Virus record (IMG/VR): IMGVR_UViG_3300033146_001833
Coordinates: 1-28,462 of that record
DNA from: a virus
DNA: 28,462 bases
Strand: one strand, 5' to 3'
Part shown: positions 20,865 through 23,546 of the stretch, one piece after another
How the letters are laid out: the number at the start of each line of letters is the position of its first letter
How positions within the stretch are numbered: the stretch's first letter is position 1
Notes under the pieces: generated by a model
Database searches by the model: none
What the model saw: only the letters and a program-made list of their open reading frames with translations
What the model was told of the DNA's origin: nothing
Translations under genes and position numbers: made by a program

Positions 20865-21071
20865 TTATATATTACTTGCCATATCAGCAACCCTGCCGGG
20901 TCTTCGACCCCCAGGGAACTTCAACCCTTCATGAATCTCGGCACTCGGCTTGGTGTACATCAACCTCTTCCGCCGGCTTGCATTCTTCGGCAGCACCCTG
21001 TAATTCGGATAACTGGCGATATGTATATTCCCATAAAACTCCGCAAACTCCACCCCATGCCTATTCTTCAT
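20865..21071 (-). CDS. Hypothetical basic protein, first gene of the late operon, 68 aa
   Basis: Not recognised. ATG 21071 has AAGGAG five bases upstream; a GTG two codons earlier is too close to that site. The protein is basic, with RRKR in the middle and a Gly/Arg-rich FPGGRRPGRV near the C-terminus, and ends 18 bases before the terminase start. Its place in front of terminase would suit a small terminase subunit or DNA-binding helper, but it is short for that family and I see no helix-turn-helix. Confidence 0.6.
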   Translation of the reverse strand: MKNRHGVEFAEFYGNIHIASYPNYRVLPKNASRRKRLMYTKPSAEIHEGLKFPGGRRPGRVADMASNI

Positions 21072-21093
21072 CTTCACTCCTTCCTCTTCCCTG

Positions 21094-21123
21094 ATTATAT
21101 CACAAATCTATCTCTTTTTTCAT
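21094..21123 (-). promoter_or_regulatory. Candidate sigma70-type promoter for the late (minus-strand) operon
   Basis: On the minus strand an extended -10 box TGATATAAT (21094-21102) is an exact TGnTATAAT. An 18-base spacer separates it from ATGAAA (21118-21123), which matches four of six -35 consensus bases. Transcription would start near 21087, giving a leader of about 15 bases that is almost wholly the purine-rich ribosome site of the first late gene. If used, the late genes can be read by host RNA polymerase. Confidence 0.5.
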
Positions 21124-21204
21124 CCTCTTTTCCTATTTCCCCCCTTCCCCACTCTCTCTCTTTGTATTAAAATAGAGTCATGATTTTATATCACCGTTGT
21201 GAAA

Positions 21205-21429
21205 CGTCGATCAAATCTATCAAGTGCCCATTAGGCTCGCAGTCGTGAGCTGAGGGGAGCATCTTGAGGATGGGTTATCGACGATGATCGGTAGCCCATT
21301 TGTCACCTACCTACGGTCCGAAGGGTGTGAGGATAGGCAGAATTATCCGAAACGTAGAGTAGAACCTGGCTTACGATGCAATTCCTTGCATCTTGTCTGC
21401 CCAACCATCTGGCTCCTAAAAAAAGAGCC
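21205..21429 (+). ncRNA. Candidate structured RNA (multi-hairpin, possible bistable switch)
   Basis: There is no gene here, but helices are dense: 235-240/245-250 (loop AGTC), an 11-bp stem 270-280/289-299 with loop ACGATGAT, a 9-bp stem 307-315/353-362 with one bulged A that encloses GGATA/TATCC (331-335/344-348), a perfect 7-bp hairpin 375-381/386-392 with loop TTCC, and GGCTC/GAGCC (411-415/425-429); all numbers are 21 kb plus the value shown. Three pairs are U-G only if the plus strand is transcribed (239/245, 275/294, 278/291), and would be A-C mismatches on the minus strand. The segment 270-283 can instead pair upstream (CGTCGA 205-210 with TCGACG 278-283; CCCAT 227-231 with ATGGG 270-274). 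No known RNA family was recognised. Confidence 0.5.
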
Positions 21430-21430
21430 T

Positions 21431-21446
21431 GGGGGGGTAGGGGGGG
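21431..21446 (+). other. G7-TA-G7 tract, possible G-quadruplex
   Basis: Two runs of seven G separated by TA, directly after the last hairpin of the candidate RNA. Each run can supply two G-triplets, so an intramolecular quadruplex is possible in DNA or plus-strand RNA. It is striking in an otherwise AT-leaning sequence and could act as a transcription pause, replication block or packaging landmark. Confidence 0.5.
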
Positions 21447-21621
21447 TCTCTCCAAAGGCTTCTTCCTTTAACCTTTCTTATCTTAAAACCTTCAACATCA
21501 GAGAGAGTATAGAGAGAGTAAGTTAGCCTGAAAGGCTCCCCTCCATCGTTACATATCCTCTCTCTTCTCTCTCTCTGGTATTGTTTATCTTTTCTTCCTT
21601 CTCTTCGCCTTTAACGATTAC
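21447..21621. other. Geneless stretch, CT/GA-rich
   Basis: No ORF with a ribosome site. The stretch holds long CT or GA runs (near 21500-21520 and 21557-21577) and a short GCCT...AGGC inverted repeat near 21526-21536. No promoter or gene could be supported. Confidence 0.5.
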
Positions 21622-21677
21622 TTCTGACGATTTATATATAAACCACGATTACTCTGATTCTGACGATTTATATATAA
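21622..21677. repeat. Two 20-bp direct repeats TTCTGACGATTTATATATAA
   Basis: Identical copies at 21622-21641 and 21658-21677, 36 bp apart, each preceded by an ACGATTACT element (21613-21621 and about 21644-21652). The TATATATAA core followed by the GC-rich region could be a duplicated promoter for a phage polymerase or alternative sigma, a replication iteron or a protein-binding site. No -35 box at normal spacing was found. Confidence 0.8.
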
Positions 21678-21786
21678 GCTAGTACCCCCCCATGCGGGGA
21701 AGGAACAAATCAGGGAACTGGCCTTGGGTGTTGGGTACTTGGGTCTGACATGGATAACGGACTGGACCACGGGGTACCGGGTAGTC

Positions 21787-21799
21787 AACTATGATAGTT
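21787..21799. promoter_or_regulatory. Palindrome AACTAT-G-ATAGTT, operator-like
   Basis: A perfect 6-bp inverted repeat around one central base, standing just before the first GC-rich hairpin repeat. A stem with a one-base loop does not form well as RNA, so a dimeric DNA-binding protein site is more likely. No repressor gene is seen in the window. Confidence 0.35.
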
Positions 21800-21807
21800 A
21801 AGAGATA

Positions 21808-21888
21808 GCGGGGTTCCACCCCACACCCCAATGCGAGAGCAGGGTGTCCCACCCCGCACCCCTAGAGCGGGGCTCCGCCCCACACCCC
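21808..21888 (+). repeat. Three copies of a GGGG-nnnnn-CCCC-nnn-ACCCC hairpin repeat
   Basis: Copies at 21810-21829, 21842-21862 and 21869-21888. The last has the clean form GGGGCTCCGCCCC (5-bp stem, three-base loop) followed by ACACCCC; the others differ by substitutions that partly keep the stem. The first copy is followed by AATGC, as is the copy at 23084-23109. The same family recurs at 23083-23190. Such GC-rich hairpin plus C-tract units look like a dispersed repeat shared with a host or plasmid rather than phage coding sequence. Confidence 0.75.
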
Positions 21889-21908
21889 AGACTCGGAGGC
21901 TCCCTGAA

Positions 21909-22165
21909 CGGCGACGCTCGGAGGGCTGGCTGACCTATCGGGTAGCGGTAAGAGTCGCCGAGGACAAGTAGAGAAGAGGGATTGCGATATTCTCTGGAAA
22001 AGTCAACCCCCTGTGGCCACGGTAGCGTCAGATAATAAGGAAGCGTATCCGCCCCGAATATGGGGAGCCGGGGGCCCGTCCCCGGCGTGAACCGTATGAT
22101 AGTGTTTACTGTTGGGAGTACGGCCTGGTCGCACGACCAGAGGAAAACGTATATAAAAATATACG
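21909..22165 (+). ncRNA. Second run of hairpins upstream of the plus-strand operon
   Basis: Successive stems: CGGCGAC/GTCGCCG (21909-21915 with 21954-21960); CCCC/GGGG (22052-22065); GCCGGGG/CCCCGGC (22067-22086); CCGTA/TACGG (22092-22123) enclosing ATAGT/ACTGT; CTGGTC/GACCAG with loop GCAC (22125-22140); and CGTATAT/ATATACG with loop AAAA (22148-22165). No ORF with a ribosome site lies here. It could be one large structured RNA or a string of protein sites; the run ends just before the plus-strand promoter. Together with 21205-21429 this makes most of the intergenic region capable of folding. Confidence 0.4.
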
Positions 22166-22185
22166 CTAAAATGGTAACAAAGTAC

Positions 22186-22214
22186 TATACACTAAGATAC
22201 ACTCATGGTATACT
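22186..22214 (+). promoter_or_regulatory. Candidate promoter for the plus-strand small-gene operon
   Basis: Extended -10 TGGTATACT (22206-22214) with -35 TATACA (22186-22191, four of six consensus bases) at a 17-base spacing. Transcription would begin near 22221, immediately before the hairpin at 22223-22235, about 48 bases upstream of the first start codon. Confidence 0.5.
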
Positions 22215-22222
22215 TCCCATAG

Positions 22223-22235
22223 TTCCCGTAGGGAA
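22223..22235 (+). promoter_or_regulatory. 5'-terminal hairpin of the plus-strand transcript
   Basis: TTCCC-GTA-GGGAA, a perfect 5-bp stem with a three-base loop at the predicted 5' end of the messenger. Stems at the extreme 5' end commonly protect phage messengers from decay. It depends on the promoter call just upstream. Confidence 0.4.
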
Positions 22236-22268
22236 TACAAATCAAAGTATCACAAGGAGATACAACAA

Positions 22269-22622
22269 ATGTTAACGCCAAACATGGTAGAGAAGATCAG
22301 GAACCTGCAAGAAGAAGTGAAGACCAACCGGTACAGTTACGAAGAATGGATGCCGATGCTCAAGCAGAGAGTAAGCCCCGAAGAGTATCAGGAAATTGAA
22401 AGCATCATTGCAATCGGAGAAGCGGACCTGCGCAACGACGACGCCGTGAAAGCCTGCACCGATAGAAACGAATGGATGCTGACAGAGTTCGAGCATGAAG
22501 GAGAACAATCCCCATCATGGCTTGCACGTATCAAGGCGACTGGAGTAATGAAACCGAATGATATACGTCACCTGAATAAAATATCATTCTACGCAAATCA
22601 TACTAAGGCATTCATGAGCTAA
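22269..22622 (+). CDS. Hypothetical protein, first gene of the plus-strand operon, 117 aa
   Basis: Not recognised. ATG 22269 is preceded by AAGGAG nine bases upstream. The protein is charged and helical (MVEKIRNLQEEVKTNRYSYEEW, then RVSPEEYQEIESIIAIGEADL), with a C-terminal helix that includes PNDIRHLNKISFYANHTKAF. No cysteine pair, transmembrane segment or catalytic motif was seen. As the promoter-proximal gene it may be strongly and early expressed, so a regulatory or host-interaction role is possible, but nothing in the sequence shows it. Confidence 0.75.
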   Translation: MLTPNMVEKIRNLQEEVKTNRYSYEEWMPMLKQRVSPEEYQEIESIIAIGEADLRNDDAVKACTDRNEWMLTEFEHEGEQSPSWLARIKATGVMKPNDIRHLNKISFYANHTKAFMS

Positions 22623-22659: not shown

Positions 22660-22941
22660 TTATACAAGCACGACAATTATATATTTAATGAGAAGACAGC
22701 GGAATTGTATATCGACGGGAAGATTGCCTATAAAGGACGGTCCGCCCTTGAGCTTCAGGAGATACTATCCGATGACTGGACAAGAGTGACTGAGGAGATA
22801 GGTTACTTCACCGCAGACAAGAGAGAGAGAGACGCCGACTTGTCCGCGACTCAATCCGCTGAGTCATTCATTGACAGGGGATATAAAAGACCGGACCCGA
22901 CGGACTCCGAGAGATACCCCCGCAATAATGAGGAGTATTGA
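22657..22941 (+). CDS. Hypothetical protein, 94 aa
   Basis: Not recognised. It starts with a beta-like N-terminus (KHDNYIFNEKTAELYIDGKIAYKG), then a short helix (SALELQEILSDDW), and ends in a highly charged, probably disordered tail with RERD and Pro/Asp-rich sequence. The start depends on the hairpin-bridged ribosome site described at 22622-22659; no other site lies close to ATG 22657. It is followed by another GC-rich hairpin at 22949-22968. Confidence 0.65.
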   Translation: MLYKHDNYIFNEKTAELYIDGKIAYKGRSALELQEILSDDWTRVTEEIGYFTADKRERDADLSATQSAESFIDRGYKRPDPTDSERYPRNNEEY

Positions 22942-22948
22942 AACCATA

Positions 22949-22968
22949 GGGGATCCGAAAGGGTCCCC
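22949..22968 (+). other. Intergenic hairpin GGGGATCC-GAAA-GGGTCCCC
   Basis: Eight base pairs (one U-G) closed by a GAAA tetraloop, a very stable RNA fold. There is no T run, so it is not a classical terminator. It lies between the stop at 22941 and the start at 22987, and may block 3' exonucleases or act on translation of the next start. Another G/C-stem hairpin precedes the previous gene. Confidence 0.7.
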
Positions 22969-22986
22969 GCCACCAGAAGGAATAGT

Positions 22987-23184
22987 ATGTTATATCAGAC
23001 AGATAACATAAAAGTACCAAACAGCAAAAAAGTCCAAAAAATTTTCGCTTATAATACGGTGGCCTTCGGCGTTTATATCGGAAGGGGCTCCGCCCCTCAT
23101 ACCCCAATGCCCCATTGGCTCCGCCCCTGGAACCCCGATAACAATATGGTGACCGAGTACGGTCGGCAAGGGCTCCGCCCCTGA
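22987..23184 (+). CDS. Doubtful 65-aa ORF, perhaps a gene remnant read into repeats
   Basis: AAGG lies six bases before ATG 22987, so initiation is plausible. Only the first 30 or so residues look like protein (MLYQTDNIKVPNSKKVQKIF); from residue 33 on the frame simply translates the GC-rich repeats. The opening MLYxxDN and the hairpin before it resemble the start of the previous gene, suggesting a duplicated start region whose original coding part was replaced by repeat sequence. I would not count on a functional product. Confidence 0.3.
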   Translation: MLYQTDNIKVPNSKKVQKIFAYNTVAFGVYIGRGSAPHTPMPHWLRPWNPDNNMVTEYGRQGLRP

Positions 23185-23336
23185 CACCCCATACTTCAGC
23201 TATCGAGAGATCAGGCAATGATGGGTGTCAGCCCCGGGCTTGCTCAACCTTCCTTTCGTGCGCCCGATATGCGTGGAGATTTCTCTCTCTGTTATTGATA
23301 TATATCGTGTAATTGTCTAAAAAAAATCGCTTATAA
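23032..23336 (+). repeat. Imperfect direct repeat GTCyAAAAAA...TCGCTTATAA flanking the GC-rich repeats
   Basis: Copy one spans 23032-23054 and copy two 23315-23336. Both have GTC, a pyrimidine, an A tract and then TCGCTTATAA, with an internal length difference of about one base. They bracket the cluster of GC-rich hairpin repeats (23083-23190). The TATAAT and TATAAC ends resemble -10 boxes, but no suitable -35 box is present, and copy two is too close to ATG 23349 to be an ordinary promoter. Confidence 0.55.
23083..23190 (+). repeat. Three further copies of the GGGGCTCCGCCCC hairpin repeat
   Basis: Copies at 23084-23105, 23111-23136 and 23169-23190, each with GGCTCCGCCCCT, three or four variable bases, then ACCCC. 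The first has the full GGGGCTCCGCCCC stem; the others have slightly shortened left arms. The first is followed by AATGC, as at 21826-21834. Together with 21808-21888 this makes six copies in 1.4 kb. They break the ORF that starts at 22987. Confidence 0.75.
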
Positions 23337-23348
23337 CAGGTAACTCAA

Positions 23349-23546
23349 ATGAAACACAGAAACATTTCAGATGTACTGTACAGTATTAAATCCATCTTCA
23401 TCATGATGGGGGTTGGCATGACCCTGGGAGGTATTCAGCTGTATGAAGAACACTTGGCAGCCGGATCCTTCCTTTCAATAGCCGGCATCATAACCATATT
23501 GGGCATTGGCCTGGTATGGAAAAAGATAAGGGATGACATATGGTAA
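23349..23546 (+). CDS. Two-helix membrane protein, holin candidate, 65 aa
   Basis: Two hydrophobic segments, residues about 13-31 and 37-57, separated by a short EEH turn, with a charged C-terminal tail (KKIRDD). This layout fits small class II holins, which permeabilise the inner membrane at lysis. ATG 23349 has only a weak site (CAGG further upstream). It overlaps the next membrane protein gene by seven bases, and an M23 peptidase lies about 0.85 kb downstream. Without family recognition, a different small membrane role is possible. Confidence 0.65.
   Translation: MKHRNISDVLYSIKSIFIMMGVGMTLGGIQLYEEHLAAGSFLSIAGIITILGIGLVWKKIRDDIW

Follow-up and report, generated by a model that had tools for sequence, protein, structure and literature searches.

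Two neighboring hairpins as a candidate structured RNA in the divergent intergenic region of a podovirus-like contig

The window analyzed here, an IMG/VR virus record, comprises 28,462 bases. Its leftward gene block was assigned by PHROGs profiles and includes the terminase large subunit, a portal-type head-tail adaptor, the major head protein, and two tail proteins; very large proteins of 797 and 2095 aa in the window have no PHROGs assignment. We read the contig as podovirus-like, probably belonging to a podovirus with T7-like tail proteins. The small rightward (early-type) genes start at 22269, and a divergent intergenic region lies between the two blocks (Table 1). The base skews switch sign across this region, and a Shine-Dalgarno-like AAGGAG precedes both the ATG at 21071 (minus strand) and the ATG at 22269 (plus strand). 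The segment of interest, 21205-21429, is located within this region, more than 800 nt from the first rightward gene. A second geneless stretch of ~400 nt (22941-23349) follows a 94-aa ORF.

Table 1. Features of the divergent intergenic region and of the segment 21205-21429 (z, stability relative to shuffled sequences)
Feature	Coordinates	Strand	Description
Geneless divergent intergenic region	21078-22268		From the ORF list; 1.19 kb; separates the leftward terminase/structural block from the rightward block
Best sigma-70-like site of the region	21094-21123	minus	10 of 12 positions, extended -10; between the segment and the leftward genes
Hairpin A	21220-21267	plus	Inner stem 21234-21251; z -3.5 plus, -2.7 minus
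Hairpin B	21268-21301	plus	14 pairs including 4 G-U on plus, 6-nt loop; z -4.7 plus, -2.6 minus
Stem C	21307-21362	plus	Predicted fold; 9 bp, bulged A at 21358, encloses stem 21331-21348
Hairpin D	21375-21392		Perfect 7-bp stem, forms equally on either strand
Hairpin E	21411-21429		5 bp on plus, 7 bp on minus

A first-pass annotation had proposed this segment as an undescribed structured RNA, and all of the helices it named were recovered at their positions by fold prediction. The 9-bp stem with a single bulged A around another stem (21307-21315 pairing with 21353-21362) and the perfect 7-bp hairpin were found as described. The reported 11-bp hairpin is present as hairpin B, but its length had been understated and amounts to 12-14 bp. 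The predicted plus-strand fold contains seven G-U pairs, three of them within helices (21239-21246, 21275-21294, and 21278-21291). Hairpin E is no intrinsic terminator on the plus strand, because G-rich sequence comes next.

The earlier statements that the segment is geneless and belongs to no recognized family both held. There is no gene in the ORF list for this stretch and no frame is gene-like; an 80-aa ORF (21284-21526) is probably not a gene, as no Shine-Dalgarno-like sequence could be seen by eye and its frame is not gene-like. Searching the window with 4227 Rfam families gave 0 matches at the gathering score, and permissive searches returned chance-level matches only, none of them to a phage RNA, RNase P, or GOLLD/ROOL. 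ARAGORN found 0 tRNA or tmRNA genes. The sequence AGAACCTGGCTTACG within the segment resembles the 3' conserved element of RNase P helix P4. An RNase P-like interpretation of the 3' half was discarded, with no 5' half seen and no Rfam match at E values up to 10, and where the AGAACCTGGCTTACG motif occurs elsewhere in IMG/VR its surroundings bear no resemblance to the segment. A search of the window for an antisense target gave 10 bases as the longest exact complementary matches.

We then compared the folding energies with those of dinucleotide-shuffled sequences. On the plus strand, the whole segment (-76.3 kcal/mol) is more stable than 99.4% of 1000 shuffles, and on the minus strand it surpasses 99.6% (0.4% fold as well), figures to be read with the fact that the first-pass annotation had picked the segment after seeing its fold. 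Hairpins A and B together (21220-21301) were equaled by 0 of 1000 shuffles on the plus strand (z -5.8) and by 4 of 1000 on the minus strand (z -3.2). The central part (21302-21405), which contains stem C, is no more stable than shuffled sequence (9.3% of shuffles fold as well on plus, 16.5% on minus), and for hairpins D and E 0 of 1000 shuffles were as stable on both strands. An unbiased scan with windows of 83 nt placed A and B 12th among 4730, and the loci ahead of them, about eight, are mostly coding; a scan with windows of 225 nt placed the segment in the top few percent for each strand. Two neighboring hairpins, A and B, are the only part of the segment that stands out as unusually stable. 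The lowest plus-strand z-score of the 225-nt scan (-5.95) belongs to 22801-23025.

For comparison with related phages, as suggested in the first-pass annotation, we looked for homologues of the segment, but 50,697 phage records, 72,556 plasmids, patterns run against IMG/VR, and two syntenic relatives yielded none. The BLAST matches of the segment were 20-25-base chance matches (E 3-10) to Prevotella Lak phages and a Polaromonas plasmid, and the sole match of the larger region, to phage Jeremy, falls outside the segment. Patterns built from three parts of the segment retrieved 0, 15, 2, and 0 stretches from IMG/VR, none of which carries the rest of the structure. Searches with the terminase, the capsid protein, and the first rightward protein found only L002, L003, and L004 as IMG/VR records of the same group, with L045 added by capsid; L003 is also a contig in a Thermotogae MAG, with a scaffold name that suggests Guaymas. 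The region upstream of the terminase gene is contained in L004 and L002. Synteny is backed in L004 by a homologue of the first rightward gene (E 4.9e-12), and in L002 its basis is gene order plus a weak alignment of 22% identity. Neither blastn nor the single-sequence covariance models R1 and R2 detected anything like the segment in these two syntenic regions. The terminase DNA of the relatives is ~67% identical to that of the window, so that loss of a diverged RNA would look the same as failed detection. An 84-aa rightward ORF is also present in the syntenic region of L004 (1957-2713), and the homologue of the window's first rightward gene there is preceded by a second non-coding stretch of ~750 nt, which is GC-rich.

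These results bear on the possibility that the segment has no selected RNA function and that chance or drift produced its stable hairpins in an intergenic region that changes quickly. Comparable folds occur at about ten other, mostly coding places in the window, part C is not significant, nothing is conserved in the two syntenic relatives, and the stretch was picked after it had been seen. However, chance would have to account for A and B, unequaled in 1000 shuffles and with a plus-strand bias, as well as for D and E, which also had 0 of 1000. We regard this explanation as possible but rather unlikely.

The intergenic region harbors further repeats and hairpins. Just upstream of the first rightward gene, a strong fold is predicted in all three phages (22055-22268 in the window, z -4.6; 2967-3200 in L004, z -4.2; 1081-1200 in L002, z -4.1), and no similarity among these stretches was detected by blastn. 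By these predictions, a position-conserved leader hairpin before the first rightward gene appears to be a better shared-RNA candidate than 21205-21429. Short direct repeats are found in each intergenic region and differ in each phage: two exact copies of TTCTGACGATTTATATATAA in the window (21622-21641 and 21658-21677), two 31-nt units in L004 (3140-3201), and three 27-nt units with CTAAGT/ACTTAG dyads in L002 (1244-1449). These repeats could act as promoters or operators. In the non-coding stretches that flank the first rightward genes on both sides, REP-like hairpins recur around GGGGCTCCGCCCC, with ACCCC following (21807-21889 and 23084-23190). Immediately downstream of the segment, runs of G and C make up a 13-nt inverted repeat (21427-21439 with 21683-21695), inside which lies a long GA/CT hairpin (21493-21583) with 26-nt arms that are 81% complementary.

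Such inverted repeats extending beyond the segment, together with nearby direct repeats, the base-skew switch within the region, and the ability of D and E to form equally well on the minus strand, would suit a DNA element, with the hairpins or inverted repeats serving as a replication origin, a packaging site, or protein-binding sites beside the terminase gene. But every mismatch within hairpin B is G-U on the plus strand, for which a DNA site has no need, and there are no iterons within the segment, which makes a DNA element unlikely in our view.

The first-pass annotation had argued from the G-U pairs for a plus-strand RNA. Counting such pairs is a biased strand test, because a predicted structure always shows them on the strand that was folded; the energy difference between the strands relative to shuffles is a fairer one. 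By this measure the argument stands for A and B, where the plus strand is favored with p about 0.005 at a position chosen post hoc, but it does not extend to the segment as a whole (p 0.65), since the minus strand folds equally well. The purine fraction on the plus strand is 0.52 in the segment, compared to 0.27 and 0.39 in the flanks (21078-21204 and 21430-21620), which are pyrimidine-rich on this strand like the leftward genes. Thus, the segment is a compositional island of balanced composition. Consensus scans of the intergenic region found 5 sigma-70-like sites against 1.9 expected, so even the best site is weak. They detected no plus-strand terminator and, just upstream of the segment, no promoter at threshold; a weak TTGTAT/TATATC pair read by eye at 21162-21192 is a weak possible plus-strand promoter. 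Alternatively, the segment could belong to the leader of the leftward late mRNA, folded on the minus strand, which would fit the equally good minus-strand fold and the purine-rich minus strand of both flanks, as in the leftward genes. Since A and B are weaker on that strand, and the segment would be missing from a transcript that starts at the best leftward promoter-like site, located downstream of it, we consider a late leader quite improbable.

Our tentative preference, held at somewhat less than even confidence, is that the segment represents a fast-evolving, lineage-specific plus-strand RNA element of the divergent control region. It is supported by the stability and strand bias of A and B, the compositional island, the lack of a coding frame, and the lack of an Rfam family. 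Against it stand the comparable folds elsewhere, the equal folding of both strands overall, the lack of a homologue, of a plus-strand terminator, and of a recognized upstream promoter, and the leftward-type skew of both flanks. If the element works, A and B are most likely the part that matters. They would function as a plus-strand RNA, which could be the 5' portion of a long rightward leader or a short transcript of its own. The segment would then be transcribed rightward, and the hairpins may protect or regulate the rightward transcript; C to E may be part of the same element. A bolder version, a new plus-strand RNA of ~225 nt made during infection, whose hairpins A and B would work in trans or from within the leader to govern switching between rightward and leftward genes, seems very doubtful to us. 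Hairpins A and B merit the label of a candidate structured RNA, and our results neither confirm nor refute the claim of an undescribed structured RNA.

In T7-like phages, structured leaders and hairpins occur in untranslated sequence between the promoters and the first early genes. The segment shares with them stem-loops in untranslated sequence, but it lies >800 nt from the rightward gene and has no known transcript or RNase III processing site. Comparative genomics has yielded structured RNA candidates from phages and metagenomes (Weinberg et al. 2010, PMC2864571), and GOLLD and ROOL are further such candidate RNAs (PMC12286853). The published RNAs were accepted on the basis of many homologues with conserved sequence and compensatory changes (PMC2864571). 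Helices in one sequence are insufficient, since equally stable stretches, largely coding, occur elsewhere in the window. Unlike these candidates, our segment is a single sequence for which no homologue was found and which none of their Rfam models matches at the gathering score. Like them, it is geneless and intergenic, as some of them are in phages, with several predicted helices and a function initially not known. If confirmed, it would be one more phage intergenic RNA and would hint at the control of two divergent gene blocks in an uncultured T7-like podovirus.
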